DNA of 30,308 nt from Acetobacteraceae bacterium (GTDB lineage Bacteria > Pseudomonadota > Alphaproteobacteria > Acetobacterales > Acetobacteraceae). This document shows positions 3,366-18,771 of this stretch, one piece after another (the stretch's first letter is position 1; each line of letters starts with the position of its first letter). The position numbers and the translations under genes are program-made. Under the pieces are notes generated by a model that saw only the letters and a program-made list of their open reading frames with translations, had not been told where the DNA came from and made no database searches. The stretch lies in NCBI GenBank assembly GCA_947478535.1, contig CANJXD010000007.1, positions 1 through 30,308 of the forward strand, given 5' to 3'.

Positions 3366-4093
3366 ACGGGCCGGTGCTCGCCATCCGCGATCTCTCCGCC
3401 GGGTATGGGGAGGAGCCGATCGTGCAGGGGGTGAACCTCGATATCGCGCCGGGGTCCATCACCACGCTGATCGGCGCGAATGGCGCGGGAAAATCCACTT
3501 TGCTGAAGGCGCTCTATGGCCTCAACCGGCGCTTCTCGGGCAGCGTGATGCTGGATGGTGTCGCCATCGATGCGCTGGTGCCGGCCGCCAGGCTGCGAGC
3601 GGGGTTGGGCTTCGTGCCGCAGGGGCGGTGCAATTTCCCGCAGATGACGGTGGAGGAAAATCTCCGCCTGGGCACCTGGACCCTGCCGCCGGCCAAGGGT
3701 CGCGACGCGATGGCGCGGATGCGGGCGCTGTTCCCCGTGCTGGGCGAAAAGGCGCGCGTCGCCGCGGGCAATCTCAGCGGCGGCGAACAGCAGGTGCTGG
3801 AGATGGCGATGGTGCTGATGACAGCGCCGCGCGTGCTGCTGCTGGATGAGCCTTCCATCGGCCTGTCGCCGAAGAACCTCGGCATCGTGCTGCGCACCAT
3901 CCGGCAGGTATGCCGGGAAGGCACGACCATCGTGATGGTGGAGCAGAATGTGAAGGGCGCGCTGGCGATCAGCGATACGGCGGTGGTGATGGAACTCGGC
4001 CGCATCGTGGTGCAGGGGCCGGCCGCGACCATCGCGGCCGACCCGGCCATTGCCCAGGCCTATCTCGGGGCTCTGCCCAGCCCCCGGGCCTAA
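3362..4093 (+). CDS. livF: Branched-chain amino-acid-type ABC ATPase LivF
   Basis: Second ATPase of the liv importer, 243 aa. Walker A GANGAGKST is at residues 38-46, PQGRCNFPQMTVEENL with the Q-loop at about 86-101, signature LSGGEQQ at 138-144, and Walker B VLLLDEP at 158-164. The H-loop position reads MVEQN, with Gln in place of His as in typical LivF proteins. It is translationally coupled to livG through ATGA and is the last gene of the operon. Its TAA stop (4091-4093) overlaps the stop codon of the converging receptor gene on the other strand, so no terminator fits between the two genes. Confidence 0.95.
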   Translation: MNGPVLAIRDLSAGYGEEPIVQGVNLDIAPGSITTLIGANGAGKSTLLKALYGLNRRFSGSVMLDGVAIDALVPAARLRAGLGFVPQGRCNFPQMTVEENLRLGTWTLPPAKGRDAMARMRALFPVLGEKARVAAGNLSGGEQQVLEMAMVLMTAPRVLLLDEPSIGLSPKNLGIVLRTIRQVCREGTTIVMVEQNVKGALAISDTAVVMELGRIVVQGPAATIAADPAIAQAYLGALPSPRA

Positions 4094-5070: not shown

Positions 5071-5089
5071 CGGTCGCATCCTTTGCGGA

Positions 5090-5785
5090 TCACGCCTGGA
5101 GGGAAGCGCGATAGGCTTCCATCGTCGCGGCATCGGGGGGGTAGGTGGTCTCCAGCGGATAGCCGGCGCGGATGCGGGCGACGAGGAAGGCTTCCAGCGC
5201 CTCCTGCTTCGCGGCCGTCTGCGCCACCTCCAGCGCGATGCCGGCGGGGATGCAGACGGCACCCGTGGCATCGCCAAGGATGACATCGCCGGGATAGACG
5301 GCGACGCCGGCGCAGCCGATGGGCTGTTCCCAATCCACCACGGCGATCTGCGTCGAGCCCGGCACCGGCGCGGAGCCGAGGCAGAAGACGGGCAGGCCCA
5401 CCTCGACGATGCCCGGCACATCGCCGGCGCCGCTATCGGTGATGAAGCCCGCGATGCCGCGCTGCTTCAGGGCGAGGGCGATGATGTCCCCGAGGGGGGA
5501 GACACCGGCGGCGCCGCGCGCATCCATCACGATGATGTCACCGGGCTGCGCCGCCGCCATCGCCTGACGATGCAGGTTCGGCGCACGGCCGGCATTGCCG
5601 GCATCGCGCAGATCCTCCCGCACCGGGATGGTGCGGATGGTGAAGGCGCGGCCGAGGATGCGGGCATTGCCGCCGTCGATCGGACGCAGGCCCGTGAAGA
5701 AGCGCGTGCGCAGACCGTGCTTCGTCAGCACGGCGATGACGGTGGGCACGGAGACGGCACGAAAGGCGTCGAGGACTTCATCCAT
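5090..5785 (-). CDS. RraA-like / 4-hydroxy-4-methyl-2-oxoglutarate aldolase family protein
   Basis: A 231-aa protein of the RraA / HMG-CHA aldolase superfamily (often mis-annotated as demethylmenaquinone methyltransferase). Family features are SVPTVIAVL near residue 12, GRAFTIRTIP near 45-54, AAAQPGDIIVMDARGA at 77-91, GVSPLGDIIALALKQRGIAGFI at 94-115, and GVAVYPGDVILGDATGAVCIP at 160-180. In characterised aldolases the central loop reads like DGAVRD, with an Arg binding the oxo-acid and an Asp binding the metal. Here it reads TDSGAGD at about residues 116-122, so the Arg position is Gly while the Asp is kept. Aldolase activity on the classic substrate is therefore doubtful. The ATG at 5785 is the only start codon near the conserved N-terminus. 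The gene diverges from the first LLM gene and precedes the Bug receptor gene. Confidence 0.82.
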   Translation of the reverse strand: MDEVLDAFRAVSVPTVIAVLTKHGLRTRFFTGLRPIDGGNARILGRAFTIRTIPVREDLRDAGNAGRAPNLHRQAMAAAQPGDIIVMDARGAAGVSPLGDIIALALKQRGIAGFITDSGAGDVPGIVEVGLPVFCLGSAPVPGSTQIAVVDWEQPIGCAGVAVYPGDVILGDATGAVCIPAGIALEVAQTAAKQEALEAFLVARIRAGYPLETTYPPDAATMEAYRASLQA

Positions 5786-5914: not shown

Positions 5915-7246
5915 ATGGCCAAGCGGCAGATGAAACTGGGCGCCTTCCTGCACGGCTTCGGGCACCATCAGGCGGGCTGGCGGCATCCTTCCACCGCGAT
6001 CGACCAGGAATTCAGCTTCGCGCACTACGCGCGGATGGCGCAGACGGCGGAGCGCGGCTGCTTCGACCTGGTGTTCCTGGCGGACAGCACGGGCATCCGC
6101 GATTTCGAGCTGGAGGCGCTGAGCCGCACGGCGCGCGCGGCGGTGTTCGAGCCGATCACGCTGCTGGCGGCACTCAGCGTGGTGACGACGCATATCGGCC
6201 TGATCGCCACGGCCTCCACCACCTATTCCGAGCCCTATACCATCGCGCGGAAATACGCCTCGCTCGACATGCTGAGCGGCGGGCGCAGCGGGTGGAACCT
6301 CGTCACCTCCGCCACGGATTCGGAGGCGAAGAATTTTCACCTGGACCGGCAGGTGCCGCATGGCGATCGCTACGCGCGGGCGGGGGAATTCGCCGATGTC
6401 GTGATGGGGCTTTGGGATAGCTGGGCGCCGGACGCCTTCCCGCGTGACAAGGACAGCGGCCGCTTCTTCGATCCGGAGAAGCTGCGCTTCCTGAACCATC
6501 GGGGCGAGCATTTCGGCGTGCGCGGCCCGCTGAACGCGCCGCGTTCGCCGCAGGGCCGGCCGATCATCGTGCAGGCGGGATCGTCCGAGGACGGCAAGAA
6601 CCTCGCGGCGCGGACCGCGGATGTGGTGTTCACGGCGCAGCCGACGCTGGCGGCGGGCAAGGCTTTCTACGCCGACCTCAAGGGCCGCATGGCGCAATAC
6701 GGGCGGGACCCGGACGCGCTGAAGATCATGCCCGGCCTGCTGCCGATCGTCGGCGCGACGGAAGCGGAAGCGCAGGCGAAGTTTCAGGAATTGCAGGAGT
6801 TGATCCATCCCTCCATCGGCCTCGCGCAACTCTCGGAACTGCTCGGGCGGTTCGACCTTTCGCCCTATGATGTGGATGGCCCCCTGCCGGAGATTCCGGC
6901 GACGGATGGCGGGGTTTCCCGGCGCCAGGTGCTGATCGACATGGCGCGGCGCGACAACCTCACGATCCGGCAGTTGTGGCAGCGCGTCGCGGCGGCGCGG
7001 GGCTTCCTGCCAGCGATCGGCACGGCCACGCAGATTGCCGATACGCTGGAACAATGGATCGAGGAAGGGGGCGCGGACGGGTTCAACCTGATGGCCCCCG
7101 TCGCGGCGCGGGACCTGGAGGAATTCGTCGAACACGTCGTGCCCGAATTGCAGCGGCGCGGCCTGGTGCGGACCGGCTACTCCGCGACGACGTTGCGCGG
7201 GCATCTCGGGCTGGCTGAGCCGGCCAGCGCGCATGCGGTGAAATAG
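5915..7246 (+). CDS. LLM-class flavin-dependent oxidoreductase 1 (NtaA/SnaA/DszA-like monooxygenase)
   Basis: A 443-aa bacterial-luciferase-fold protein of the NtaA/SnaA/DszA group. Known members use reduced FMN from a separate reductase to oxidise C-N or C-S compounds such as nitrilotriacetate or dibenzothiophene sulfone. Marks seen: the N-terminal strand MKLGAFLHGFGHHQAGWRHP, GCFDLVFLADS at about 48-58, and the long flavin-site block from IGLIATASTTYSEPYTIARK through YASLDMLSGGRSGWNLVTS near 94-132. Then come GDRYARAGEF, RGPLNAPRSPQGRPIIVQAG, and the C-terminal VPELQRRGLVRTGYSATTLRGHLG. The ATG at 5915 follows GGAGG at 5899-5903 and starts just before the conserved first strand; an earlier ATG at 5864 falls inside the candidate promoter. 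No flavin reductase gene is nearby. The substrate is unknown. Confidence 0.9.
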   Translation: MAKRQMKLGAFLHGFGHHQAGWRHPSTAIDQEFSFAHYARMAQTAERGCFDLVFLADSTGIRDFELEALSRTARAAVFEPITLLAALSVVTTHIGLIATASTTYSEPYTIARKYASLDMLSGGRSGWNLVTSATDSEAKNFHLDRQVPHGDRYARAGEFADVVMGLWDSWAPDAFPRDKDSGRFFDPEKLRFLNHRGEHFGVRGPLNAPRSPQGRPIIVQAGSSEDGKNLAARTADVVFTAQPTLAAGKAFYADLKGRMAQYGRDPDALKIMPGLLPIVGATEAEAQAKFQELQELIHPSIGLAQLSELLGRFDLSPYDVDGPLPEIPATDGGVSRRQVLIDMARRDNLTIRQLWQRVAAARGFLPAIGTATQIADTLEQWIEEGGADGFNLMAPVAARDLEEFVEHVVPELQRRGLVRTGYSATTLRGHLGLAEPASAHAVK

Positions 7247-7252
7247 CCGGCT

Positions 7253-7296
7253 TGCCGAAACGGCATCCCCCTTCGCGACATTCGGCACTTGCCGAA
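7253..7296. promoter_or_regulatory. Two inverted repeats forming a candidate operator between LLM 1 and LLM 2
   Basis: In the 93-bp gap between the two LLM genes there are two related dyads. The right one is a perfect palindrome, TTCGGCA-CT-TGCCGAA (7281-7296). The left one is TGCCG-AAA-CGGCA (7253-7265). The 13-mer CTTGCCGAAACGG occurs twice, at 7251-7263 and 7288-7300, with a 37-bp period. Repeated dyads just upstream of a start are typical of repressor or activator binding sites. No regulator gene is present in this part of the window. The role is inference. Confidence 0.45.
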
Positions 7297-7339
7297 ACGG
7301 GGGTGGAGGATGCTGCATGGGGGTTCACGGAGATCGCGC

Positions 7340-8638
7340 ATGAGCAGCCATCCCTTTCACCTCGCCTGGTTTCTGTCGCGCGGCTATGGGCCGAAAGCCT
7401 GGCGGCAGGACTGGGGTGGCGACCAGCGGCGGTGGATGATGCCGGACCTCTTCGTCGATATGGCGCGCAGCATGGAACGCGCCTGCTTCGATTACCTCAT
7501 CATCGAGGATAGCTCGAATGTCCCCTACACCTTCGAAGGCTCGCACGACACCTATCTGAAATACGCCGCCGCCACGCCGAAGCTGGACCCGGCGGTGCTG
7601 GTGCCCTGGCTGGCGATGGCGACGCAGCGGCTGGGCATCGTGCCGACCCTGTCCACCAGCGAATACCCGCCCTATCTGCTCGCGCGGCTGGTGAATTCGC
7701 TGGACCATGTGACGGAAGGGCGGGTGGGGTGGAACATCGTCACCGGCAGCAATGACGGCGGCGCGCAGAATTACGGGCGGGAGAAGCACTTCCCGCATGA
7801 CGAACGCTACGACATCGCCGATGAATTCACCGATGTCGTGACCCGGCTGTGGGAAAGCTGGGAGCCGGATGCGGTGGTGCTGGACCGGGAACGCGATGTC
7901 TTCGCCGAGGGCGGCAAGGTGCATCCCATCCATCACCAGGGGAAATACTTTACTGTTCGGGGGCCGTTGAATGCGCCACGCTCGCCGCAGGGGCGGCCGG
8001 TGCTGTGCCAGGCGGGTGGGTCGCCGCGCGGGCAGCGCTTCGCGTCCCGCTGGGCGGATACCATCATCACCAATGCCGCCTCCGTCCCCGCGATGAAGGC
8101 CTTCCGGCAGGAGGTGCGCGGCCTGGCCGCCGCGCAGGGGCGCGACCCCGATGCCATCAAGGTGCTGTTCCTCGCCTATCCCATCGTCGATGTCTCGATG
8201 GAAGCGGCACGCACGCGTCGGGATGCGGAGGCGGCGGATGCGGCGGCGCATCTGACGATGAACCTCGCCATGATCTCCCGCATCAGCGGGATCGACTTCT
8301 CGACATTCGACCTCGATGAGCCGTTGCCGGCGCTGACCACCAATGGGCATCAGTCGAGCGTGGCGAAATACGCCGGGCGCACGCCGCGCGCGGTGGCGAT
8401 GGGCGTCGCGACCAAATCGGGCATCGACTACACCGGCACGGTCGATCACGTCGCCGGCATGATGCAGGAGATCATGCAGGAGGTCGGTGGCGATGGCTTC
8501 CTGCTGTTCAACGGCGATTTCACGCGCCGCTATGTCGCGGAGATCTGCGACGGGCTGGTGCCGGAATTGCAGCGGCGGGGGCTGACGCGGAAGGCCTACG
8601 CGCACGCGACCTTCCGCGACAACCTGCTGGCGTTCTGA
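7340..8638 (+). CDS. LLM-class flavin-dependent oxidoreductase 2 (divergent NtaA-like monooxygenase)
   Basis: A 432-aa luciferase-fold protein, clearly in the same superfamily as LLM 1 but the most divergent of the five. The N-terminus is HLAWFLSRGYGPKAWRQDW rather than LGAF...GWRHP. The acidic strand is CFDYLIIEDSSN at 49-60. The flavin-site block reads LGIVPTLSTSEYPPYLLARL followed by VNSLDHVTEGRVGWNIVTGS at about 98-137. Shared elements are HDERYDIADEF, the RGPLNAPRSPQGRPVLCQAGG turn, and the C-terminal VPELQRRGLTRKAYAHATFRDNL. The ATG at 7340 has GGAG (7329-7332) at good spacing, and the upstream in-frame extension has no family similarity. It follows LLM 1 by 93 bp, with a candidate operator between. 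It likely needs an FMNH2-supplying partner encoded elsewhere; the substrate is unknown. Confidence 0.9.
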   Translation: MSSHPFHLAWFLSRGYGPKAWRQDWGGDQRRWMMPDLFVDMARSMERACFDYLIIEDSSNVPYTFEGSHDTYLKYAAATPKLDPAVLVPWLAMATQRLGIVPTLSTSEYPPYLLARLVNSLDHVTEGRVGWNIVTGSNDGGAQNYGREKHFPHDERYDIADEFTDVVTRLWESWEPDAVVLDRERDVFAEGGKVHPIHHQGKYFTVRGPLNAPRSPQGRPVLCQAGGSPRGQRFASRWADTIITNAASVPAMKAFRQEVRGLAAAQGRDPDAIKVLFLAYPIVDVSMEAARTRRDAEAADAAAHLTMNLAMISRISGIDFSTFDLDEPLPALTTNGHQSSVAKYAGRTPRAVAMGVATKSGIDYTGTVDHVAGMMQEIMQEVGGDGFLLFNGDFTRRYVAEICDGLVPELQRRGLTRKAYAHATFRDNLLAF

Positions 8639-8691
8639 ACGGCCTGAAGCGAGGTGCTTGACGCGGCGGGCCGTGCTGGCGATGACGGGCC

Positions 8692-9909
8692 ATGAGCACA
8701 CCCGCCGAGACCATCGCCCGCCTTCGCGCCAATCCCCGCTTCCAGGCCGCCCTCGCGGTGCTGGACCGGGATCATGACCGGATGGTGGAGGAGATCATCC
8801 GCCTGACGGAAATCCCCTCCCCGCCCTTCAAGGAGGAAGCGCGCGCCGCCGCCTATCTCGCCCTGCTGGGCCAGCATGGGCTGGAGGAGGTGGAGCAGGA
8901 TGCGATCGGCAATGTCATGGGCCGGCGGCGTGGCACGGGCAACGGGCAGACCGTGGTGGTCGCGGCGCATCTCGACACGGTGTTTCCCGAGGGCACGGAT
9001 GTGCGGGTGCGGCGGGACGGCACAAAGCTGTTCGCACCCGGGGTGGGTGACGATACGCGCAGCCTCGCTGTCAACCTCGCCTTCCTGCGGGCGATGGATG
9101 AGGCAGGGATCACCACGCGGAGCGATATCCTGTTCCTCGGCGATGTGGGCGAGGAAGGGCTGGGGGACCTGCGCGGCGTGCGGCACTTCTTCCGCGAGGG
9201 GCGGCACAAGGACCGCGTCGCGGCCTTCTTCACGGTGGATAGCCCGGAGGTCGATCGCATCGTCACGACCGGCGTCGGCAGCAAGCGATTCCGCGTGACC
9301 TTCCGCGGCCCGGGCGGGCACAGCTTCAACGCCTTCGGGCTGGTGAACCCGGCCTATGCCATGGCGCGGGCGAGCCTGACGCTGGCGGCGATCACGGCGC
9401 CTGCAGACCCTCCGACGACGCATTGCGTGAGCGTGCTGGGCGGCGGCACCTCGGTGAATGCCATCCCGAACGAGGTGTGGATGGAGGTGGATCTACGCAG
9501 CCAGGCGCCCAGCGAACTCGCGCGGATCGAGCGGGAATTCCTCGCGGGCGTGGAGGCGGCGGTGGCCGCGGAAAATGCGGCGCGCTCGACGCGGGATGGC
9601 GCCATCACCGCGCAGGTCGTGGCCATTGGCGACCGGCCCGCGGGCAGCACGGCCACGGGCTCGGCGCTGGTGCAGCTCACCGCCGCGGCGGTAGCGGCGA
9701 TGGGCTACACGCCGCGCTTCGAGGCTTCCTCCACCGATGCGAATATCCCGATGAGCCTCGGCATTCCCGCGATCAAGATCGGCAGCGGCGGGCGCAGCGG
9801 GCGCGCGCATTCGCTGGAGGAATGGATCGACGTGGAGAAGGGCGAGAGCCTGCGCGGGATGGAAGCGAGCCTCGCCGCGATCCTCGCCGTGGCGGGGATG
9901 GAGGAGTGA
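8692..9909 (+). CDS. M20-family zinc metallopeptidase / amidohydrolase
   Basis: A 405-aa cytoplasmic metallopeptidase or amidohydrolase of the M20 (PepT/ArgE/carboxypeptidase G2) clan. The expected metal and catalytic residues are present: AAHLDTVF with His93 and Asp95, GVGDD with Asp120/121 (bridging metal ligand), GEEG with Glu154/155 (general base and ligand), TVDSPEVD with Asp183, and a late His in RAHSLEEW near residue 376. The dimerisation-domain motif GPGGHSFNAFG starts near residue 207. Members hydrolyse peptide, N-acyl-amino-acid or carbamoyl bonds; which one applies here cannot be told. The ATG at 8692 has only a weak ribosome site (GACGGGCC). The gene follows LLM 2 by 53 bp in the same direction, which suggests a shared pathway in which an amide or N-acyl bond is cleaved. 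Confidence 0.9.
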   Translation: MSTPAETIARLRANPRFQAALAVLDRDHDRMVEEIIRLTEIPSPPFKEEARAAAYLALLGQHGLEEVEQDAIGNVMGRRRGTGNGQTVVVAAHLDTVFPEGTDVRVRRDGTKLFAPGVGDDTRSLAVNLAFLRAMDEAGITTRSDILFLGDVGEEGLGDLRGVRHFFREGRHKDRVAAFFTVDSPEVDRIVTTGVGSKRFRVTFRGPGGHSFNAFGLVNPAYAMARASLTLAAITAPADPPTTHCVSVLGGGTSVNAIPNEVWMEVDLRSQAPSELARIEREFLAGVEAAVAAENAARSTRDGAITAQVVAIGDRPAGSTATGSALVQLTAAAVAAMGYTPRFEASSTDANIPMSLGIPAIKIGSGGRSGRAHSLEEWIDVEKGESLRGMEASLAAILAVAGMEE

Positions 9910-9960
9910 TGCCGCGCCGCGCGGCGTGACATCGCGATGGCAGAACAGCCGTTTTTGGGC

Positions 9961-9989
9961 TTGGCAGCCTTGCCGCGCTGGGAAAGGAT
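9961..9989 (+). promoter_or_regulatory. Candidate promoter for the ABC transporter-LLM operon
   Basis: TTGGCA (9961-9966), 17 bases, then AAGGAT (9984-9989). The -35 has five of six consensus bases and the -10 three of six. It would start a transcript near 9996, about 35 bases before the small reading frame at 10031. Suggestive only. Confidence 0.3.
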
Positions 9990-10030
9990 GACCGGCAGCG
10001 ATGGATCACGTTGAGAAGGACAGGCCAGGC

Positions 10031-10081
10031 ATGTGGCCGCCCAGGAATGCCGTGGCGCCGAGTTCCATGACCAGGCCATGA
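10031..10081 (+). CDS. Candidate 16-residue leader peptide coupled to the ABC ATPase gene
   Basis: A short frame MWPPRNAVAPSSMTRP begins with ATG at 10031, ten bases after an AAGGA (10016-10020), the only good ribosome site in this leader. It ends with TGA at 10079-10081, overlapping the ATPase start codon as ATGA (10078-10081). The ATPase start itself has a poor ribosome site, so terminating ribosomes could re-initiate on it. This may be simple translational coupling or a regulatory leader with two consecutive prolines near its start. It may also be chance; conservation in relatives has not been checked. Confidence 0.3.
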   Translation: MWPPRNAVAPSSMTRP

Positions 10082-11163
10082 GCATCGAGGTCACGGGGCT
10101 CATCAAGCGCTTCGGCGCCGCCACCGCCGTCGCCGGCGTGGATATCAGCCTGCCCGCGGGGTCGATGCTGGTGCTGCTGGGGCCTTCGGGCTGCGGCAAG
10201 ACGACGACGATGCGCTGCATCGCCGGGTTGGAGAACCCGGATGAGGGCGTCATCGCCATCCACGGCACCACGGTCTTCGACCGCCGCGCGGGCATCGACG
10301 TGCCCGTTCATCGCCGCCATGTCGGCATGGTCTTCCAGTCCTACGCCATCTGGCCGCACCTCACGGTGTTCCAGAACGTGTCCTTCCCGCTGGAGATGCA
10401 GCGCACGCCGAAGGCGGAGTTGCGCGACCGCACGATGGCGATGCTGGAGAAGGTGGGCCTCGCGGATTACGCGACGCGCGGGGCAAGCGCGCTGAGCGGC
10501 GGGCAGATGCAGCGCGTGGCACTGGCGCGCAGTCTGGTGATGCGGCCCGGCGTGCTGCTGTTCGATGAGCCGCTGAGCAACCTCGATGCACGGCTGCGGG
10601 ACCGCTTGCGGGTGCAGTTGCGGGAATTGCAGACGGAACTCGGCATCACCGGCATCTACGTCACGCATGACCAGCAGGAGGCGCTGGCACTGGCGGACAG
10701 CATCATGGTGATGGATCACGGCGCGGTGCGGCAGACCGGCGGACCGGTGGAGCTGTATCACGCGCCCACCACCGCCGCGATCGCCGCCTTCCTCGGCTAT
10801 TCCAACATCTTCCCCGCGGCCGAATGGCGCCGCGACGGCGAACAGACGGCGGTGGTGCTGGCATCCGGGCGCCGCTTGCTGGCGACCGGCGCGGCACCGT
10901 CCCCGGGCACGCCGTCCAGCCTCTGCGTGCGGCCGGAGGATCTCTCGCTGCGGGCGCAGCGCGCGGAGGAACCGCCGGAGGCCATCGCGGGGGAGATCAC
11001 GCTGGCGAGCTTCCTCGGCGCCACCATGCTCTACCGCGTCCGCACCCCCGGCGGCGAGGTGTGGGAAGTGCTGGCGGACAAGGTGCTGGCGGGGCTCGCC
11101 AAGGGGTCCGCCGTGGTGGTGGAGGCGCCAGCCGCGGCGCTCCGCCTGCTGCCTGACGCATGA
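10078..11163 (+). CDS. ABC transporter ATPase, Fe3+/spermidine (FbpC/PotA-like) type
   Basis: A 361-aa importer ATPase with a C-terminal TOBE-type regulatory domain. Walker A GPSGCGKT is at residues 35-42, the Q-loop at VFQSYAIWPHLTV (85-97), signature LSGGQMQRVALA at 139-150, Walker B VLLFDEPLSNLDARLR at 159-174, and the H-loop at YVTHDQQEA (His197). From about residue 225 the beta-rich TOBE part carries RPEDLSLR. The length and QSYAIWPH/LSNLDA features fit the ferric/polyamine/2-aminoethylphosphonate transporter group. The ATG at 10078 begins right before the conserved IEVTGLIKRFG strand; an in-frame GTG at 10033 is a possible longer start. The next gene starts inside its stop codon (ATGA, 11160-11163). 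It energises the fused permease encoded downstream. Confidence 0.92.
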   Translation: MSIEVTGLIKRFGAATAVAGVDISLPAGSMLVLLGPSGCGKTTTMRCIAGLENPDEGVIAIHGTTVFDRRAGIDVPVHRRHVGMVFQSYAIWPHLTVFQNVSFPLEMQRTPKAELRDRTMAMLEKVGLADYATRGASALSGGQMQRVALARSLVMRPGVLLFDEPLSNLDARLRDRLRVQLRELQTELGITGIYVTHDQQEALALADSIMVMDHGAVRQTGGPVELYHAPTTAAIAAFLGYSNIFPAAEWRRDGEQTAVVLASGRRLLATGAAPSPGTPSSLCVRPEDLSLRAQRAEEPPEAIAGEITLASFLGATMLYRVRTPGGEVWEVLADKVLAGLAKGSAVVVEAPAAALRLLPDA

Positions 11164-12860
11164 TCGGGGCCTCCACCCTCTCCCGCCTCGGGGGCTTCGC
11201 CGTGATGGCGGCGCTGCTGGGGATCATTGGCCTGCTCGTGCTCTCGCCGCTGGTGATGACGGCGATCGCCTCGTTCTCCACGGAGGTGCCGTTTTCCGGC
11301 GGGCCGCCGGGGCGCTTCACGCTCGACAACTACCGCAACCTGTTTGTGCCGGAACTGGCGACGGCGACGTGGAACACCCTGGTGATCGCGGCGGGCGGGA
11401 CGGTGATTTCCGTCAGCATCGGCTGCTGCCTCGCCTGGCTCGCGGCACGGACGGATGTGCCATGCAAGCCGCTGGTGCATCTGGTGGGGCTGATGCCGTT
11501 GTTCGTCTCGCTCGTCGTGGCCTCCGTCACCTGGTCGGTGCTGGGCTCGGGTCGCAGCGGCTATCTCAACATCATCCTGCGCAGCCTCGGCGTGGATTGG
11601 CAGATCGATATCCGCTCCCTCGGCGGGATCACGCTGCTGCACGGGCTCTACTACGTGCCCTATTCCTACATCATGCTGTATGGCGCGCTGTCGCTGATCC
11701 ATCCGGAGATGGAACAGGCCGCGAGCGTGCATGGCGCGTCCAATTTCCGGATGATGCGGCGCATCACCTTCCCGCTGGTGAAGCCGGCGCTGTTCGGCGC
11801 CATCCTGCTGAGCTTCGTCGCGATGGCGGAGGAATTTCCGGTGCCGGCCGTGCTGGGCGGACCGGTGGGGATCGAGACGCTGTCGACGCGCATCTTCAAC
11901 CTGATGACGCGCGTGCCCGGGGAGCCGAACCAGGCCGCGGCGGTTGGCATCCTGCTGACGGCCATCGTGTCCGTGCTCGTGTGGATGCAGCGGCGGCTGC
12001 TGCGGGGGCGGGATTATCGCACCGTCACGGGCAAGGGCATGCGGCCGCAACTGCTGCGGCTCGGCTGGTTCCGCTGGCCGGCGCTGGTGCTGGTGCTGGT
12101 CTATGCCTTCATCGCCCTCGGCCTGCCGCTGCTGGCGCTGGGCGTCGGCGCGCTGCGGCAGGGCATGTTCATCCGCAACGCGGCGGCGCTGTTCGATGTC
12201 TCCACCTTCAGCCTGAATGCCCTGCGCAGCACGCTGACGGATGAGCATGTGGCGCAGGCCGTGGTGAATACGCTGGTCACCGGCATCGCCACCGCCATCG
12301 GTGGGACGACGCTGTATTTCATCCTCGCCTATGTCGCGCAGCGCACCCGGCTCGCGGGGCGGCAGACGCTGGAATATCTGGCGATGGTGCCGCTGGCGCT
12401 GCCGGCGCTGGTGATGGGCATCGGCACGCTCTGGACCTGGCTGGCCATGCCTGTGCCGGTCTATGGCACGCTGATGGTGCTGGTCATCGCCTATACGGGA
12501 AGGCTGATGCCGCAGGGCGTGCGGGCGATCGGCGCCAGCATCGGGCAGATCCATGACGACCTCGAACACGCGGCGATGGTGTCCGGTGCCACGCGGGCGC
12601 AGGCGGTGATGCGCATCACGCTGCCGCTGATGCGCGGCGCGGTGGTGTCCTCCGCCTTCCTCACCCTGGTGCTGGCGACGCGGGAGCTGACCTCCTCGCT
12701 GCTGCTCTACACGACCAATACGCGGGTGCTCTCCGTCGTGATCTATGAGGCCTATGAGCAGGGGCTCTGGAGCTTCGTGGCCTCGATCAGCCTGGTCTAT
12801 ACGGGACTATTGCTGGTGCTCACCCTGATCGGGCGCCGATGGATGCGAACCTCCTTCTGA
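11160..12860 (+). CDS. Fused double-domain ABC permease, Fe3+-type (FbpB/ThiP-like)
   Basis: A 566-aa polytopic inner-membrane protein with two BPD_transp_1 permease domains in one chain, as in FbpB/SfuB and ThiP; it is about twice the length of a single-domain permease. Each half carries an EAA coupling loop: EMEQAASVHGASNFRMMRR followed by ITFPLVKPALFG near residues 181-210, and DLEHAAMVSGATRAQAVMR followed by ITLPLMRGAVVS near 467-497. About twelve hydrophobic segments are visible, starting with GFAVMAALLGIIGLLVLSPL. The start codon overlaps the ATPase stop, so stoichiometric expression is likely. It would carry the ligand delivered by the binding protein encoded next. Confidence 0.92.
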   Translation: MIGASTLSRLGGFAVMAALLGIIGLLVLSPLVMTAIASFSTEVPFSGGPPGRFTLDNYRNLFVPELATATWNTLVIAAGGTVISVSIGCCLAWLAARTDVPCKPLVHLVGLMPLFVSLVVASVTWSVLGSGRSGYLNIILRSLGVDWQIDIRSLGGITLLHGLYYVPYSYIMLYGALSLIHPEMEQAASVHGASNFRMMRRITFPLVKPALFGAILLSFVAMAEEFPVPAVLGGPVGIETLSTRIFNLMTRVPGEPNQAAAVGILLTAIVSVLVWMQRRLLRGRDYRTVTGKGMRPQLLRLGWFRWPALVLVLVYAFIALGLPLLALGVGALRQGMFIRNAAALFDVSTFSLNALRSTLTDEHVAQAVVNTLVTGIATAIGGTTLYFILAYVAQRTRLAGRQTLEYLAMVPLALPALVMGIGTLWTWLAMPVPVYGTLMVLVIAYTGRLMPQGVRAIGASIGQIHDDLEHAAMVSGATRAQAVMRITLPLMRGAVVSSAFLTLVLATRELTSSLLLYTTNTRVLSVVIYEAYEQGLWSFVASISLVYTGLLLVLTLIGRRWMRTSF

Positions 12861-12877
12861 CCGGAAAGGCAGCAGCG

Positions 12878-13954
12878 ATGACCAAGACAGGATGGCAGGC
12901 CGGACGCCGGACACTGATCGCCCTCGGCGCGGGCATGGCGCTGGCGGCACCACGGGTGGCGCGGGCGCAGGCGCTGACGCTGGGCGGCGAGACCATCGCC
13001 GATGCGGAACACTGGGCCGCGGCGAAGCGGGAGGGCACGATCACCATGTACGGATCGCTGCCGACGCGGAACTGGCAACTGGCCGGCGAGGGTTTCCAGC
13101 GCGATACCGGCATCCGGATCAACTACATCAACCTGATCTCGCCCCGCATCTTCGCCCGCGCCAATGCCGAATTCGCCTCCAACCGCCTGGAAGCGGATTG
13201 GGTCGATACGACGGAAGTGCTGATGGCGAAGGATTGGCAGGATCGCGGCCTGCTGCGCCATGCCTACAAGGTGCCGCTGTTCGACCGTCTCGCGCCGGAA
13301 CTGCGGGATGCCGAGGGTCATTGGTATTCCATCTTCCGCACGCCCTATGTCTTCGGGCTGAACACGGAAGTTGTTGCCGCCGACGAGATCCCGAAAAGCT
13401 GGCGTGACCTGCTGCATCCGCGCTGGCGCGGCCGGCTCGGCCTGCCGAGCATCGATGGCGGCGGCGCGCCCTTCAACGCCTATGCCTTCCTGCGGGAGAA
13501 ATTCGGCGAGGAATACCTGCGCGCGCTCGCGGCGCAGCGGCCGAAGATCTACCCGAGCTCGACGCCGCTGCTGACGGACCTCGTGCGCGGCGAAGTGGCG
13601 CTGACCTTCGTGGCGCCGGCGTCGATCCGCAGCCAGTTGGAGCAGGGATCGCCGCTGAAGGGGGTGTACCCCGAGGAGGGCGTCAGCGCCTATGCGACCT
13701 CCGGCGGCATCACGACGTCGGCACCGCATCCCAACGCCATCCGCCTTTACCTCAACTGGATGACAAGCCTGCACGGCAGCAACATCATCGCCTCCTCCGG
13801 CATCTACGGCACGCACCCGCAGGCGACTGCACCGGTAGCGCCGGGCTTCACCCTGCCGGATTCGTCGGGCATCTGGACGTTGCCGCTGGACCGCTGGGTG
13901 GCGAACCGGGAAGCCTACATCACGCGCTGGCGCGCCCTGTTCGGCACCAGATAG
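12878..13954 (+). CDS. Periplasmic substrate-binding protein, Fe3+-type (FbpA/PotD-like fold) with probable TAT signal
   Basis: A 358-aa extracellular solute-binding protein. Residues 1-31 form an export signal with twin arginines (GRRTLIALGAG), a hydrophobic core and an ARA-Q cleavage site near 30-31. The mature part opens with WAAAKREGTITMYGSLPTRN near 46-65, the usual first strand of type-II receptors of ferric or polyamine transporters, and continues with TPYVFGLNTEVV, PKSWRDLLHPRWRGRL and AYLFLREKFG-like segments. The start at 12878 is chosen over the in-frame ATG at 12839 because GGAAAGG lies eight bases upstream and the signal then begins correctly. It follows the permease by 17 bp. 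The tyrosine pair that binds iron in FbpA is not obvious, so the ligand may be a chelate or another anion. Confidence 0.9.
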   Translation: MTKTGWQAGRRTLIALGAGMALAAPRVARAQALTLGGETIADAEHWAAAKREGTITMYGSLPTRNWQLAGEGFQRDTGIRINYINLISPRIFARANAEFASNRLEADWVDTTEVLMAKDWQDRGLLRHAYKVPLFDRLAPELRDAEGHWYSIFRTPYVFGLNTEVVAADEIPKSWRDLLHPRWRGRLGLPSIDGGGAPFNAYAFLREKFGEEYLRALAAQRPKIYPSSTPLLTDLVRGEVALTFVAPASIRSQLEQGSPLKGVYPEEGVSAYATSGGITTSAPHPNAIRLYLNWMTSLHGSNIIASSGIYGTHPQATAPVAPGFTLPDSSGIWTLPLDRWVANREAYITRWRALFGTR

Positions 13955-13966
13955 GGAACGACGACC

Positions 13967-15310
13967 ATGGCTGGCCGCAAGCTTCGGCTGGGTGCCTTCT
14001 TTTCGATGCCCGGCAACCACCTCGGCGGATGGCGACACCCGGATGCGGTGCCGAATGCCAATACCGATTTCGCGACCTATCTGCACCTCGCGAAGGTGGC
14101 GGAGCGCGGGCTGTATGACACCATCTTCTTCCGCGACACGGCGGCCGTCGCGGGGGCGGATGCGATGTTCGCGGGCGATCGCAGCCGGGCACGGCTGGCG
14201 CGTCTGGTGGCGCTGGAGCCGGTGATGGCGCTGGCGGGCATGGCCGCCGTCACCAGCCGGATCGGGCTGATCGCGACGGCGACGACGACCTATAACGAGC
14301 CCTACAACCTCGCGCGGCGCTTCGCGACGCTGGACCATATGAGCAACGGGCGCGCGGGGTGGAACCTCGTCACCTCCCAGTTCGAGGATGAGGCGGCGAA
14401 TTTCGGGCTCGCGCAGCATCCGGACCATGCCTCCCGCTACGCGCGCGCCGAGGAATTCTACGATGTCGTCGCCGGGCTGTGGGATAGCTGGGAGGAAGAC
14501 GCCTTCCTCTATGACAAGCAGGAGGGGATGTATTTCGACTTCGACAAGATGCATTTCCTGGAACACAAGGGCGCGCATTTCGACGTGCGGGGGCCGCTGA
14601 ACCTGCCGCGCACGCCGCAGGGAAGGCCCGTCGTGGCGCAGGCCGGATCCTCCGGCCCGGGGATGGACCTGGCGGCGCGCACGGCGGACCTGGTGTTCAC
14701 GGCGCAGTTGGAAATTCCGGAAGCGGCGGCCTTCTACAAGGAACTCAAGGGCCGCCTCGCGCAGCATGGGCGGGAGCCGGGGGATCTGCTGATCCTGCCG
14801 GGGCTGACGCCGGTCGTCGGGCGGACGATGGCGGAGGCGCAGGCGAAATACGATGAGTTGCAGGAGCTGATGCCGGATGATGTCGCGCTGAATTCGCTGG
14901 CGCGGCTGTCCGGTGGGCTGGACCTGCGACTGTTTCCGCTGGATGGGCCGCTGCCGGACCTGCCGCCGACCAATTCGGGCAAGAGCCGGCAGCAATTGGC
15001 CATCGACCTCGCGCGCAAGAACAACATGACGCTGCGGCAGATCGCGCGGCACATGGCCTCCGCCGCCGGGCATCGGGTGCTGGTGGGCACACCCACCTCC
15101 ATCGCGGATGAGATGCAGGCCTGGCTGGACGCGGATGCGGCGGATGGGTTCAACGTGATCTGCAACCACTACCCCGTACCGTTCGAGGAATTCACCGACA
15201 TGGTGATCCCCGAATTGCAGCGGCGCGGTATCTTCCGCACGGAATATGAGGGCATGACGCTGCGGGAGAATCTCGGCCTGCGCGTGCCGCGCAATCGCTA
15301 CGCCGCGTGA
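13967..15310 (+). CDS. LLM-class flavin-dependent oxidoreductase 3 (NtaA/SnaA/DszA-like monooxygenase)
   Basis: A 447-aa luciferase-fold monooxygenase encoded 12 bp after the ABC binding-protein gene, with a good AGGGA ribosome site. Family marks: LRLGAFFSMPGNHLGGWRHP at 6-25, RGLYDTIFFRDTAAV at 47-61, and the flavin-site block from IGLIATATTTYNEPYNLARR through FATLDHMSNGRAGWNLVTSQ near 99-138. Then come SRYARAEEFYDVVAGLWDSW, RGPLNLPRTPQGRPVVAQAG, PTNSGKSRQQLAIDLARKNN and the C-terminal IPELQRRGIFRTEYEGMTLR. It is very similar to the next gene, notably in the TTTYNEP and GRAGWNLVTSQFE stretches and the C-terminus, so the pair probably arose by tandem duplication. Its stop overlaps the next start. 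Being in one operon with the importer suggests that it acts on the imported substrate; a reduced-flavin partner is needed but not seen. Confidence 0.92.
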   Translation: MAGRKLRLGAFFSMPGNHLGGWRHPDAVPNANTDFATYLHLAKVAERGLYDTIFFRDTAAVAGADAMFAGDRSRARLARLVALEPVMALAGMAAVTSRIGLIATATTTYNEPYNLARRFATLDHMSNGRAGWNLVTSQFEDEAANFGLAQHPDHASRYARAEEFYDVVAGLWDSWEEDAFLYDKQEGMYFDFDKMHFLEHKGAHFDVRGPLNLPRTPQGRPVVAQAGSSGPGMDLAARTADLVFTAQLEIPEAAAFYKELKGRLAQHGREPGDLLILPGLTPVVGRTMAEAQAKYDELQELMPDDVALNSLARLSGGLDLRLFPLDGPLPDLPPTNSGKSRQQLAIDLARKNNMTLRQIARHMASAAGHRVLVGTPTSIADEMQAWLDADAADGFNVICNHYPVPFEEFTDMVIPELQRRGIFRTEYEGMTLRENLGLRVPRNRYAA

Positions 15311-16635
15311 GCAGCGCGCCGGATCGGCTGCGGCTGGCCGCCTTTTTCACACCGCCGGGCTCGGCCTATGCGGGCTGGCGGATGCCGGAAGCGCGCGCCG
15401 CCGACATGGAGTTCGAGGACTACGCCGAGATGGCGCGGCTGGCCGAGACCGGCAAGCTCGACATGCTGTTCTTCCAGGACACCGCCGCCGCCGCCGCCGC
15501 CGCGCTGGATGACAGCGACCCGGAAGTGCAGACCGGCGCCGCGCGCGTGACGCGGATCGAACCGCTGACGCTGCTGGCGGCGCTGGCGGTGGTGACAAAG
15601 CATCTCGGCCTCGTCGCCACGGCCACCACGACCTACAACGAGCCGTGGCACATCGCGCGGCGCTTCGCCTCGGTGGACGCGATCAGCAAGGGCCGCGCGG
15701 GGTGGAACCTCGTCACCTCCCAGTTCGAGCAGGAGGCGTTCAACTTCGGGCAGGACGAGCATGCCGCGCATGGCGACCGGTATGAGCGCGCCGCGGAATT
15801 CTACGAGGTCGTCGCCGGGCTGTGGGACAGTTGGGACGCGGATGCGATCATCCGCGACAAGGCGAGCGGGCGCTACTTCGAGCCCGCGGGGATGCGCGTG
15901 CTGCGGCATGAGGGGAAGCACTTCAAGGTGCGCGGGCCGCTCAACGTCGCCCGCTCCCCGCAGGGGCGGCCGATCGTGGCGCAGGCCGGGTCATCGCCCA
16001 CCGGGCGGGACCTGGCGGCGCGCATCGCGGACCTGACCTTCACGGCGCAGACCGACCCGGCGGAGGCGCGGGACTTCCGGCAGGAGATGCGCGGGCGCGT
16101 GGTGGCGCATGGCCGGCATCCGGAGGCGCTGAAGGTGCTGCCGGGGCTGAACTTCATCGTGGCGGAGACGGAAAGCGAGGCCCGCGCGCTGCAGGAACAG
16201 CTGATGTCGATGATGGTGGACCGCATCATCCTGCCGACGCTGTCGCGCCTGACCGGCGGTGTGGACCTGCGGCAGTATCCGCTGGATGGCCCCCTGCCCC
16301 CGCTGCCGCCGACGAATTCCGGGCAGAGCCGGCAGAAGATGCTGGTGGAACTCGCGGCGCGGGAGGGGCTTTCGATCCGCCAGCTCGCACGGCGCTACGC
16401 GACGTCAAATGGGCATCTGATCTTCGTCGGCACGCCGCGCGCGATGGCGGAGCTGATGGAGGAATGGCTGCGCGCGGAAGCCGCCGATGGCTTCATGCTG
16501 CTGCAACCCTATTTCCCGACGCCGCTGGCGAATTTCGTGCGGCTCGTCGTGCCGGAACTGCAGCGGCGCGGCATCTTCCGCACGGAGTATGAAGGGCGGA
16601 CGCTGCGGGAGAATTTGGGGCTGCCGCCGTTGTAG
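15307..16635 (+). CDS. LLM-class flavin-dependent oxidoreductase 4 (tandem paralogue of LLM 3)
   Basis: A 442-aa luciferase-fold protein starting at GTG 15307, which overlaps the preceding TGA as GTGA. No separate ribosome site is evident, so translation is probably coupled. Family marks: LRLAAFFTPPGSAYAGWRMP at 8-27, KLDMLFFQDT at 50-59, and the flavin block from LGLVATATTTYNEPWHIARR to GRAGWNLVTSQFE near 100-141. Then come GDRYERAAEFYEVVAGLWDSW, RGPLNVARSPQGRPIVAQAG and RRGIFRTEYEGRTLRENLGL at the end. A run of seven alanines (residues 60-66) directly follows the QDT motif and is encoded by six GCC codons and one GCG. LLM 3 has a longer, different insert there. Whether the two copies form a heteromer or have split substrate ranges is unknown. 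The stop lies two bases from the stop of the converging LLM 5 gene. Confidence 0.92.
   Translation: MSSAPDRLRLAAFFTPPGSAYAGWRMPEARAADMEFEDYAEMARLAETGKLDMLFFQDTAAAAAAALDDSDPEVQTGAARVTRIEPLTLLAALAVVTKHLGLVATATTTYNEPWHIARRFASVDAISKGRAGWNLVTSQFEQEAFNFGQDEHAAHGDRYERAAEFYEVVAGLWDSWDADAIIRDKASGRYFEPAGMRVLRHEGKHFKVRGPLNVARSPQGRPIVAQAGSSPTGRDLAARIADLTFTAQTDPAEARDFRQEMRGRVVAHGRHPEALKVLPGLNFIVAETESEARALQEQLMSMMVDRIILPTLSRLTGGVDLRQYPLDGPLPPLPPTNSGQSRQKMLVELAAREGLSIRQLARRYATSNGHLIFVGTPRAMAELMEEWLRAEAADGFMLLQPYFPTPLANFVRLVVPELQRRGIFRTEYEGRTLRENLGLPPL
15482..15503 (+). repeat. GCC trinucleotide run inside LLM 4
   Basis: A run of GCC repeats (six consecutive GCC codons followed by GCG, framed by CC on the left) encodes an alanine tract in LLM 4. 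Such runs can slip in replication; changes would be in units of three bases and keep the frame. It lies in a loop-forming region next to the conserved FFQDT strand. Confidence 0.75.
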
Positions 16636-16637
16636 CG

Positions 16638-17930
16638 CTATCCCCGTCGCGGCGCGGGGCGCGGGATGCCGAGGTGGTCGCGCAGCGTCGTGCCGGTGTA
16701 GTCGCGGCGGAAGATGCCACGCCGCTGCAGGTCCGGCACCACCTGTTCGACGAACAGGTCGAAGGGACCGGGATACCAGGGCGGCATCAGCATGAAGCCA
16801 TCGGCGGCGCCGGCGCGATACCACTCCTCGATCGTGTCGGCGATGTCGCTGGGCGTGCCGCACACCATCAGTTGGCCCATGCCGCTGGCGACCATGCGAT
16901 ACAGGTCGCGCAGCGTCATGCCCTGCCGGCGCGCATACTCCGCGAGCATGACGGCGTGGTGCTGCAACGTGTCCGAGGGCGGCAGCACCGGAACCGGCCC
17001 ATCCAGCGGATAGCCGGAGACGTCATGGCCGAGGCGATGCTGCAGCGCGCCGTAGGCCGTCGCGGGCGGGATCTCGTCGGTCAGCCGGGCGAGGCTGTCC
17101 TGCGCTTCCTGTCGCGTGCGGCCGATGAAGGGGACAAGGCCGGGCATCAGCGCGACGCTGCCGGGCTTCCGCCCAAAACCGGCGACGCGGGCCTTGAAAC
17201 CCGCGTGGAAGTCCCGCGCGCTGTCGAGCATGAGCTGGGAGGTGAAGACGATATCCGCCGTGCGCGCGGCCAACGCCTGGCCGACACCGGATGACCCCGC
17301 CTGGATGATCACCGGCCGGCCCTGCGGGGACCGGCTGATGTTGAGCGGACCCTTCACGCTGAAATGCGCGCCCTGATGGTTCAGCGGATGCAGCCCGCCA
17401 GGATCGACGAAGCGGCCGCTGGCCTTGTCGAGCACCAGCGCATCATCGTCCCAGCCATCCCACAACCCGTTCACGACATCGACGAATTCCTCCGCGATGG
17501 CGTAGCGGTCGTCATGCGCGGGATGGGCCTTGGTACCGAAATTCACGGCATCCCCGGGGACCGAGCCGGTGACGACATTCCACGCTGCGCGGCCGCCGCT
17601 GAGATGGTCGATGGAGGCGAAGGCGCGGGCGAGGTGGAAGGGCTGGCAATAGGTGGTGGAGGCGGTGGCGCCGATGCCGATGTGGCTGGTGGTGGCGGCC
17701 AGCGCGCCGAGCAGCGTCAGCGGCTCGAACCGCGCGACCATGGAGGGATGGCCCTCCGGCCGCGCGCCGTAGCTGTCCGCGAAGAACACGAAATCGAACT
17801 TGCCGCGCTCCGCCGTCAGGGCGATGCGGCGGATCAGGTCGAAATCCTGCGCGCGGGTGGCGGCTTCGGGGTGCCGCCAGCCGGCGGCGTGGCTGCCGGG
17901 GACCTGGATGTAGATGCCGAGATGCAGCAC
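16638..17930 (-). CDS. LLM-class flavin-dependent oxidoreductase 5 (NtaA/SnaA/DszA-like monooxygenase)
   Basis: A 430-aa luciferase-fold monooxygenase on the minus strand. From the GTG at 17930 the protein begins VLHLGIYIQVPGSHAAGWRH, which aligns with the first strand of the other LLM proteins. The GTG lies one base after the TGA of the tautomerase gene with no strong ribosome site, so coupling is likely. Other marks: KFDFVFFADSYGARPEGHP at 44-62, the flavin block from IGIGATASTTYCQPFHLARA through FASIDHLSGGRAAWNVVTGS near 84-123, DDRYAIAEEFVDVVNGLWDGW, KGPLNISRSPQGRPVIIQAG, and the C-terminal VPDLQRRGIFRRDYTGTTLR. It is separate in strand from the other four and converges on LLM 4. Open frame upstream of 17930 overlaps the tautomerase gene and is not family-like. 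Confidence 0.9.
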   Translation of the reverse strand: MLHLGIYIQVPGSHAAGWRHPEAATRAQDFDLIRRIALTAERGKFDFVFFADSYGARPEGHPSMVARFEPLTLLGALAATTSHIGIGATASTTYCQPFHLARAFASIDHLSGGRAAWNVVTGSVPGDAVNFGTKAHPAHDDRYAIAEEFVDVVNGLWDGWDDDALVLDKASGRFVDPGGLHPLNHQGAHFSVKGPLNISRSPQGRPVIIQAGSSGVGQALAARTADIVFTSQLMLDSARDFHAGFKARVAGFGRKPGSVALMPGLVPFIGRTRQEAQDSLARLTDEIPPATAYGALQHRLGHDVSGYPLDGPVPVLPPSDTLQHHAVMLAEYARRQGMTLRDLYRMVASGMGQLMVCGTPSDIADTIEEWYRAGAADGFMLMPPWYPGPFDLFVEQVVPDLQRRGIFRRDYTGTTLRDHLGIPRPAPRRG

Positions 17931-17931: not shown

Positions 17932-18159
17932 TCAGGGGGTGTAGCCGGGCTTCTTGTAGAGCTTGTCCCAGTTCGCCTGGATATCCGGCGCATAGACCTT
18001 CTCCGCCCAGTCTTCCCGCGCCACATCCTCGATGGCGACGGAGAGGGAGGCATCGGTGGAGCCGGCGGTCTCCTTGAGGGCATTCGCGACAGCGGCCGCG
18101 ATCTGGGCCTTCAACTCCTCACTGCGTCCCGCGTAGAGCTTCACGATGATATGCGGCAT
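17932..18159 (-). CDS. 4-oxalocrotonate tautomerase-family protein
   Basis: A small 75-aa protein beginning MPHIIVKLYAGRSEELKAQI. The family uses an N-terminal proline, exposed after Met removal, as catalytic base. The ATG at 18159 places Pro directly after Met and has GAGGGA about eight bases upstream; an ATG five codons earlier (18174) would bury the proline and is rejected. The beta strand PHIIVKLYAGRS, the helix EELKAQIAAAVANALKET, and a second strand SLSVAIEDVAREDW with a C-terminal WAEKVYAPDI match tautomerase_4-like monomers. Members isomerise enol/keto or dehalogenate unsaturated acids. It heads a probable two-gene unit with LLM 5, suggesting that a keto-enol intermediate arises from the oxidation. 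Confidence 0.85.
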   Translation of the reverse strand: MPHIIVKLYAGRSEELKAQIAAAVANALKETAGSTDASLSVAIEDVAREDWAEKVYAPDIQANWDKLYKKPGYTP

Positions 18160-18261: not shown

Positions 18262-18630
18262 TCAGGGGCCGCGCGCTGGCGTGCGCTTGCCATTGTCGTT
18301 GCCGCTGGCGGCGCCCAGGACGAAGCGGCCGATGGCGTCGCAGGCGGCTTGCGGCTGCTCGATGACGAGGTAGTCGCCGCAGCCCGGCAGCATGGTGTGG
18401 ATCTGGGTCATGCCGACGCCGCTTTCCGCAGGGTGGCAGGGCGTCATGTTGTCCTCCTGCCCCGCGAGCAGCAAGACCGGCGCGGTGATCCGCGGCACGA
18501 GGGGGCTGAGGTCGGTGGCCTCGATGGTCTCGGTCGCGGCGAGTTGCACCTCGGCGTCCCGACTTTCGTAGAAGCCGCGCGCGAAGCCCACCACGGAGGT
18601 CGGGTCTGGCCCATGTCCGGTCAGCCGCAA
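18262..18630 (-). pseudogene. C-terminal remnant of an alpha/beta hydrolase
   Basis: About 120 residues resemble only the last third of an alpha/beta-hydrolase: a helix RGFYESRDAEVQLAATETIE, then LVPRITAPVLLLAGQEDNMT, the usual strand with the acidic catalytic-site residue (Asp in GQEDN), then LPGCGDYLVIEQPQAACDAIGRF. In this family the GCG motif is normally followed by the catalytic His; here it is Asp (GAC, one base from CAC). The lid, the nucleophile GxSxG and the whole N-terminal half are missing. The frame stays open upstream but turns into unrelated, AT-richer sequence and then into the tRNA gene. No good start codon exists; 18630 is merely a TTG. I call it a truncated, decaying gene cut at a junction next to the tRNA. 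Confidence 0.6.
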
Positions 18631-18694: not shown

Positions 18695-18771
18695 TGGTAG
18701 CGGCGAGCGGACTTGAACCGCTGACCCCGGCATTATGAGTGCCGTGCTCTAACCAGCTGAGCTACGCCGCC
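18695..18771 (-). tRNA. tRNA-Met (anticodon CAU), elongator type
   Basis: Read on the minus strand, the 77-base gene starts GGCGGCG, has D-arm GCTCAGCTGGTTAGAGC, anticodon arm with loop CTCATAA (CAU), T-arm with GGTTCAAGTCC, and ends CGCCGCT-A-CCA with the CCA encoded. The acceptor stem pairs fully apart from a G-U at the first pair. The stem lacks the unpaired first base of initiator tRNA and there is no run of three G-C pairs below the anticodon, so it is probably an elongator Met tRNA, although a CAU tRNA whose C is modified to decode AUA (tRNA-Ile2) cannot be fully excluded. Its 3' trailer has a short T-run (TGCTTTTTCC). It lies 45 bp downstream of mnmA on the same strand. Confidence 0.95.

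Follow-up and report, generated by a model that had tools for sequence, protein, structure and literature searches.

The DNA described here (the window) comprises 30,308 nucleotides (nt) of the 44,472-base contig CANJXD010000007.1 from an Acetobacteraceae bacterium (assembly GCA_947478535.1), about 14 kb of which lies outside the window. It carries five genes for luciferase-like monooxygenases (LLM1 to LLM5), set among genes for uptake and hydrolysis. An earlier interpretation made from the letters alone, referred to below as the sequence-only reading, had placed five such genes at 5915-17930. All five are indeed full-length Bac_luciferase genes and members of TIGR03860, with scores of 413-579 bits that exceed the curated cut-off of 279.7 bits for this family. 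The genes concerned fall into three modules (A, C and D), with LLM2 and an M20 hydrolase gene between them:

4090-5079, minus strand: Bug/TctC-type tripartite tricarboxylate receptor, module A (PF03401, 191 bits)
5090-5785, minus strand: RraA-like aldolase/decarboxylase-type protein, module A (PF03737, 96.5 bits)
5915-7246, plus strand: LLM1, NtaA/DmoA-family flavin mononucleotide (FMN) monooxygenase, module A (TIGR03860, 578.7 bits)
7340-8638 (upstream TTG at 7289 possible), plus strand: LLM2, divergent NtaA/DmoA-family monooxygenase (TIGR03860, 413.2 bits)
8692-9909, plus strand: M20 metallohydrolase, poly(aspartic acid) hydrolase-like (PF01546)
10033-11163 (alternative start 10081), plus strand: ATPase of an ATP-binding cassette (ABC) importer, PhnT2/PotA/ferric-type, module C (PF00005 and TOBE_2)
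11160-12860, plus strand: fused two-domain ABC permease, module C (PF00528 twice)
12839-13954 (alternative start 12881), plus strand: periplasmic substrate-binding protein (SBP), module C (SBP_bac_6)
13967-15310, plus strand: LLM3, module C (TIGR03860, 555.8 bits)
15307-16635, plus strand: LLM4, module C (TIGR03860, 528.0 bits)
16638-17930, minus strand: LLM5, module D (TIGR03860, 531.6 bits)
17932-18159, minus strand: 4-oxalocrotonate-type tautomerase, module D (PF01361, 42 bits)

The partners named in the sequence-only reading, namely the M20 hydrolase, an Fe3+/phosphonate/polyamine-type ABC importer, the Bug/TctC receptor, the RraA-like protein and the tautomerase, are all present by domain matches. 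They are interleaved with the LLM genes as described, except that the RraA-like and Bug genes (4090-5785) fall just outside 5915-17930. Similarly, the C-terminal motif ELQRRG attributed to all five enzymes is found in LLM1 to LLM4 and reads DLQRRG in LLM5. In module C, the ATPase and permease genes overlap by 4 nt, the permease is followed after 20 nt by the SBP gene (start 12881) and the SBP gene after 12 nt by LLM3, and the start of LLM4 overlaps the stop of LLM3 by 4 nt. In module D, one nucleotide separates the tautomerase stop from the LLM5 start, while the gaps along LLM1, LLM2, M20 and the ATPase measure 42-171 nt, varying with the starts chosen.

Pairwise identity is 47-55% among LLM1, LLM3, LLM4 and LLM5, and LLM2 is about 35% identical to all four. 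A tree built from 121 proteins places each LLM closer to outside proteins than to the other four (LLM4 only slightly so, 0.97 against 1.08) and puts LLM3 and LLM4 in one supported clade with 37 other proteins. Judged by this divergence, the five LLMs are evidently old, separate lineages. Recent tandem duplication of one LLM is ruled out by the 35-55% identities together with the tree. Solved members of the NtaA/DmoA family with long alignments include DszA, alkane monooxygenase, DmoA, ethylenediaminetetraacetate (EDTA) monooxygenase and YtnJ. YtnJ and the 3sdo protein, two solved relatives that were compared, are 34-46% identical to the window LLMs, which is too distant for any substrate to be carried over. 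A literature search, which did not target the exact layout, returned among the matches listed no paper on these enzymes in Roseomonas-type bacteria.

Each module has its own distribution among relatives. Counts from the whole-family scans of 299 genomes and from an even draw of 130 genomes are lower bounds, as they rest on the best 5, 6 or 12 candidates per genome. The SBP of module C belongs to a very small family, with 16 relatives at 40% identity or more among the matches listed from about 5.8 billion proteins. Seven relatives at 66-81% occur in this large protein set, while no orthologue was found in the 299 family genomes at 1e-60 (a search without a positive control), and 15 genomes of the genus gave matches at 24-32% alone, in 6 of the 15, with no orthologue. 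LLM3 has five relatives at 86-93% in the large protein set, after which identity falls to 71%, and matches at 1e-160 in at least 27 of the 299 family genomes, where identity reaches at most 69%. Four of the seven SBP relatives and four of the five LLM3 relatives lie on contigs of identical size (4,761, 9,172, 88,544 and 3,103,694), which is read as linkage of importer and LLM3. The remaining LLM3 relative (contig 5,618) has no SBP partner. The best plasmid matches are 33.5% for the permease and 55.5% for LLM4. The earlier proposal that import is coupled to oxidation is supported for the ATPase-permease-SBP-LLM3-LLM4 unit only, by the contigs shared for four of seven SBP relatives and by packing of 20 nt or less.

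The ligand of this importer bears on whether the system takes up and oxidizes metal chelates of the nitrilotriacetate (NTA) or EDTA kind, or iron. The ABC parts and the SBP do resemble Fe3+-type importers, and the 3sdo protein, which carries the name nitrilotriacetate monooxygenase, is the best solved match of LLM5 and the second-best of LLM1. The SBP, however, is similar as well to proteins whose names refer to pyridoxal phosphate and aminoethylphosphonate, and its sequence lacks an adjacent tyrosine pair (YY), presumably the iron site typical of ferric-binding SBP relatives; an iron importer is disfavoured for that reason. EDTA monooxygenase, moreover, comes 7th to 11th in lists of 12 solved relatives, and uptake of chelates or iron is a highly improbable role. 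As for more specific models, the nearest ones for the ATPase, PhnT2 and PotA, both score under their own cut-offs, and the three equivalog cut-offs of the 2-aminoethylphosphonate importer PhnSTU2 were unmet (318.3 of 457.7, 139.1 of 593.25 and 47 of 392.75 bits).

Module A was recovered in one relative. LLM1 has at least one match at E <= 1e-170 in the 299 family genomes, 72% identical, in genome G018, and the surrounding locus (L084) holds a Bug receptor (75%), an RraA-like gene (71%) and LLM1 in the same divergent layout as the window. The RraA-like relative there was the sole match among the loci compared at that stage, and no further LLM was found in the 20 kb around the module in G018. 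In L084 (5710-12787), the flanks of module A are formed by lrgBA and an rpsD-like gene; a LysR regulator is also present, and a DUF2848 gene lies nearby.

For module D, the best family-genome match of LLM5 is 57% identical, with matches in at least 4 of the 299 genomes; none was found at 1e-140 in the 15 genus genomes, in a search without a positive control. More distant relatives were followed on plasmids, where each LLM searched has more than 1,000 hit records and M20 has 22. Neighbourhoods were read for seven LLM1-like, two LLM5-like, two LLM3/4-like and one M20-like gene. Both LLM5-like loci, L101 and L102 (Roseomonas gilardii and Rhizobium), contain amino-acid ABC and MmgE/PrpD genes, and one of the two contains SfnB. 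Among the LLM1-like loci (58-62%), three of seven have sulfur-named neighbours: sulfite dehydrogenase in two, one of which also has a sulfonate-binding protein, and ssuD in the third. A TauD/TfdA gene is present in one of the seven.

Between modules A and C, LLM2 and the M20 gene part company in most relatives. LLM2 relatives were collected from 27 loci (68-83% identity, 3.7-21 kb long), 26 of which were usable, L027 being a fragment. Orthologues of LLM1, LLM3, LLM4, LLM5 or M20 were found in none of the 26, and L016 has a 48% LLM1-like gene. M20 matches occur in at least 83 of the 299 family genomes at 1e-30. Their flanks were followed in 47 of these 83 (7 + 40), several loci lying at contig ends, and 45 of the 47 show no LLM in the fetched stretch. 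A conserved LLM2-M20 pair is ruled out, with an LLM2 relative beside M20 in 1 of the 47. The M20 enzyme itself is a close full-length sequence relative of the poly(aspartic acid) hydrolase 7ljh (508 bits, 60% identity over 391 columns); the amidohydrolase model TIGR01891 gives it 36 bits, so that its likeness to deacetylase models is weak. According to an excerpt of the source, the hydrolase-1 type has a polyhydroxybutyrate (PHB)-depolymerase-like partner (PMC4456602), whereas none was noticed in the window open reading frames (ORFs) scanned.

The yxe (scm) operon of Bacillus subtilis likewise has an LLM monooxygenase, an M20 enzyme and an ABC importer close together, and the locus could on this analogy serve salvage of 2-succinocysteine or S-alkylcysteine as the yxe or cmo operons do, through acylation, LLM cleavage and M20 deacetylation. 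The trio of LLM, M20 and ABC genes matches, some LLM3 relatives are automatically named N-acetyl-S-(2-succino)cysteine monooxygenase, and YtnJ is among the closest solved relatives (34-44%). The amino-acid ABC and MmgE/PrpD genes beside LLM5-like genes resemble YxeMNO and YxeQ, the latter an MmgE/PrpD family member. What matches in the window is generic, however, at the level of the LLM, M20 and ABC families. Among the window ORFs submitted to Pfam there is neither a YxeL-type acetyltransferase nor an MmgE/PrpD gene, and the M20 and ABC genes are of other types. The M20 enzyme, by its 508 bits with the poly(aspartic acid) hydrolase against 36 bits with TIGR01891, argues against deacetylation of the yxe or cmo type. 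An excerpt of the published description defines a yxe cluster by at least three of the five components YxeK, YxeL, YxeMNO, YxeP and YxeQ (PMC9706529). With parts missing and an M20 enzyme of another kind, a known sulfur operon is disfavoured, and salvage of this sort is decidedly improbable here. A joined-up route can also be drawn for aspartyl or succinyl conjugates such as oligo-aspartate, iminodisuccinate- or ethylenediamine-disuccinate-like chelators and S-succinyl thiols. The Bug receptor would bind a polycarboxylate, the rare ABC importer would take it up, M20 would trim Asp-Asp bonds, the LLMs would, like YxeK, release oxaloacetate by splitting C-N or C-S bonds, and decarboxylation by the RraA-like protein would turn the oxaloacetate into pyruvate. 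It would be quite a long shot for all of these steps to hold jointly.

The absence of a flavin reductase asserted in the sequence-only reading was borne out in that no flavin-reductase domain occurs in the window ORFs scanned (30 + 10 + 2), a scan that was not exhaustive, and tblastn with one Roseomonas ponticola flavin reductase gave no match in the window. This absence is expected, because PF01613 flavin reductases are encoded in all 15 genus genomes, with 2-7 in each. The simplest reading is that reductase would be supplied in trans in this strain. In R. ponticola (G001), a PF01613 flavin reductase gene (L001, 11306-11818, minus strand) stands tail-to-tail with the closest LLM2 relative.

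Related monooxygenases are abundant in the family. The even draw shows at least one LLM over the cut-off in at least 81 of 130 Acetobacteraceae genomes, and at E <= 0.001 the eight genomes chosen for their LLM2 relative give 9-60 family matches apiece, some of which stay below the cut-off. From the matches listed for these eight, five clusters were hand-picked. In Neoroseomonas alba (L063), 11.8 kb contain five LLM frames, of which the fourth is partial, accompanied by an IclR regulator and two ABC systems of the oligopeptide type; the four others have three LLMs in 12 kb each, among the matches listed. Five LLMs per 12 kb is thus dense but recurrent. Importers also recur beside them: an SBP_bac_5 protein lies between LLM1-like and LLM3-like genes in R. 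ponticola (L075), and two Roseomonas plasmids have M20, hydantoinase and ABC-importer genes followed by an LLM3-like gene. LLM-plus-importer cassettes with varying importers are a repeated layout among the loci examined. LLM3-, LLM1- and LLM5-related genes (60-61, 55-56 and 53%) occur within 6 kb in two genomes, at L089 (9333-15032) and L090 (8951-14694). Outside the family, SAR202 Chloroflexi have up to 114 LLM paralogues per genome, which in the excerpt at hand are proposed to widen substrate range (PMC6946804). The likeness lies in the many paralogues per genome; the SAR202 expansion is of the broad COG2141 and marine, whereas the present one is of NtaA/DmoA type, in Acetobacteraceae and beside importers.

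Taken together, these observations favour a lineage-specific nutrient-scavenging patch in Falsiroseomonas-like Acetobacteraceae, made of at least three independent cassettes (A, C and D) with LLM2 and M20 between them (probability roughly 0.58). The observed basis of this patchwork consists of the genes and their family membership, their packing, the conserved pieces, the patchiness among relatives and the reductases encoded elsewhere in those relatives. The sequence-only reading had instead proposed a single dedicated import-and-oxidation pathway, in which the local importer would take up one class of complex substrates and the five LLMs would act on it in turn. The same-strand packing from LLM1 to LLM4, the overlaps along ABC, LLM3 and LLM4 and the lack of a clear internal terminator would fit such a pathway, yet in relatives the modules separate, and no fetched locus combines close orthologues from two or more modules. 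The enzymes are five old lineages and no recent duplicates, and the 299 family genomes and the 15 of the genus yielded no SBP orthologue, while M20 occurs in at least 83 of the 299. The comparison of gene neighbourhoods suggested in that reading therefore came out mixed, with modules mostly apart, and with LLM3- and LLM5-clade neighbours in L064, L089 and L090 and LLM2-M20 neighbours in L108 on the other side. A single sequential pathway is not supported by this comparison and is unlikely.

Several observations nevertheless weigh against independent cassettes. LLM1 to LLM4 all lie on the plus strand with gaps of at most 171 nt, so that a single transcript is possible, and consensus scans for promoters and terminators, which did not cover all promoter types, found no excess over shuffled sequence. 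The linkage of module A depends on one relative (G018). For module C, equal contig sizes do not prove adjacency of SBP and LLM3, and three of the seven SBP relatives (contigs 5,868,228, 11,425 and 2,862) have no LLM3 partner. In each of L064, L089 and L090, a single 20-kb stretch holds genes of both the LLM5 clade (support 1.0; 53% to LLM5) and the LLM3 clade (60-66% to LLM3). These three loci were selected for LLM3-like genes or LLM clusters, the clade joining the LLM3-like genes of L089 and L090 to LLM3 is unsupported, and the four loci that were retrieved with LLM5 itself all lack the pairing. Nine loci (L074-L078 and L089-L092) have LLM1-like (53-57%) and LLM3-like (60-68%) genes about 3 kb apart, and L077 has a third LLM in the interval; the LLM1-like genes of these nine fall outside the nearest tree group of LLM1. 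Lineages related to the window LLMs do, then, gather elsewhere, with other partners. In L108, an LLM2 relative (73%) is 180 bp from M20 (64%), another LLM is 198 bp from M20 in L112, and distant ABC relatives (45/38/27%) lie close to the LLM2 relative in L022. Finally, a linked NADPH-dependent oxidoreductase is present in three of the seven LLM1-like plasmid loci, and given these and G001, a linked reductase is not rare.

The surroundings of the patch contain the following features:

37-4093, plus strand: branched-chain-type ABC system
18695-18771, minus strand: transfer RNA (tRNA)-Met (CAT), the border of conserved and variable DNA
right of tRNA-Met: housekeeping run of mnmA, tenA, 2Fe-2S ferredoxin, two class-V aminotransferases, Rrf2 regulator, anmK and tyrS

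MnmA is 83-84% identical to its counterparts in R. ponticola (G001), Falsiroseomonas selenitidurans (G005) and Roseomonas oleicola (G008), and mnmA followed by the same tRNA-Met is found in seven relatives. Beyond the tRNA, on its 3' side away from mnmA, no genes are shared at 55% or more among eight flanks (the window and L048-L054), in a comparison that relied on simple scripted gene calling and in which three of the seven relatives contributed short flanks of 4.5-6.5 kb. Transposase genes occur there in L053 and a T7-capsid-like match, below the cut-off, in L052. The LLM patch therefore occupies a variable flank beside the conserved mnmA-tRNA-Met block. The end of tRNA-Met is present in one copy in the window, and no integrase was found in the scanned window ORFs, about 14 kb of the contig being outside the window. 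An integrase-bearing genomic island at tRNA-Met is disfavoured, with no attachment repeat and no integrase in the scanned ORFs, and flank variability alone remains. The iron-sulfur cluster (ISC) and mnmA genes were ruled out as part of a sulfur system, as relatives that lack the LLM patch retain the mnmA-tenA-ferredoxin block. Two reading frames deserve mention. A 528-residue ORF at 1779-3365 (plus strand) has an ABC ATPase as its C-terminal half and no Pfam match in its first 290 residues, and is possibly a LivM-LivG fusion. The ORF at 18262-18630 (minus strand), between the tautomerase and the tRNA, has coding-like composition and no Pfam match; on visual inspection it may be the terminal part of an alpha/beta hydrolase.

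The sulfur genes near distant LLM1- and LLM5-like genes favour organosulfur scavenging, which appears to be the likeliest role, with organonitrogen compounds also possible. Among the substrates offered in the sequence-only reading (organosulfur compounds, metal chelates or heterocycles), organosulfur fares best by the same neighbours. In the patch as proposed here, each cassette would combine its own protein for uptake or for a follow-up step with one or two monooxygenases of NtaA/DmoA type, and its genes may be co-expressed. The compound taken up by each importer would be small and of organosulfur or organonitrogen type. Using O2 together with reduced FMN (FMNH2) that a reductase encoded elsewhere makes in trans, the LLM would then oxygenate this compound beside its S or N. 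Breakage of the C-S or C-N bond would presumably follow, yielding an oxo product that may be processed by the RraA-like protein or the tautomerase. This mechanism is modelled on two known chemistries, each as given in an excerpt of its source: the YxeK type, in which oxygenation is accompanied by release of oxaloacetate (PMC9706529), and C-S cleavage of the CmoJ type (PMC10863075). The importer-LLM3(-LLM4) and Bug-RraA-LLM1 units are the best-supported functional pieces.

A system of this kind is already known, and the exact gene set is new within what was searched. Large complements of these monooxygenases occur in many Acetobacteraceae, and no characterization of them was found. If LLMs travel as importer-plus-monooxygenase cassettes, the ligand of the importer together with a test of the linked enzyme could assign their substrates. 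Ultimately, the rare SBP and LLM3 form a clean, testable unit with which to do so.

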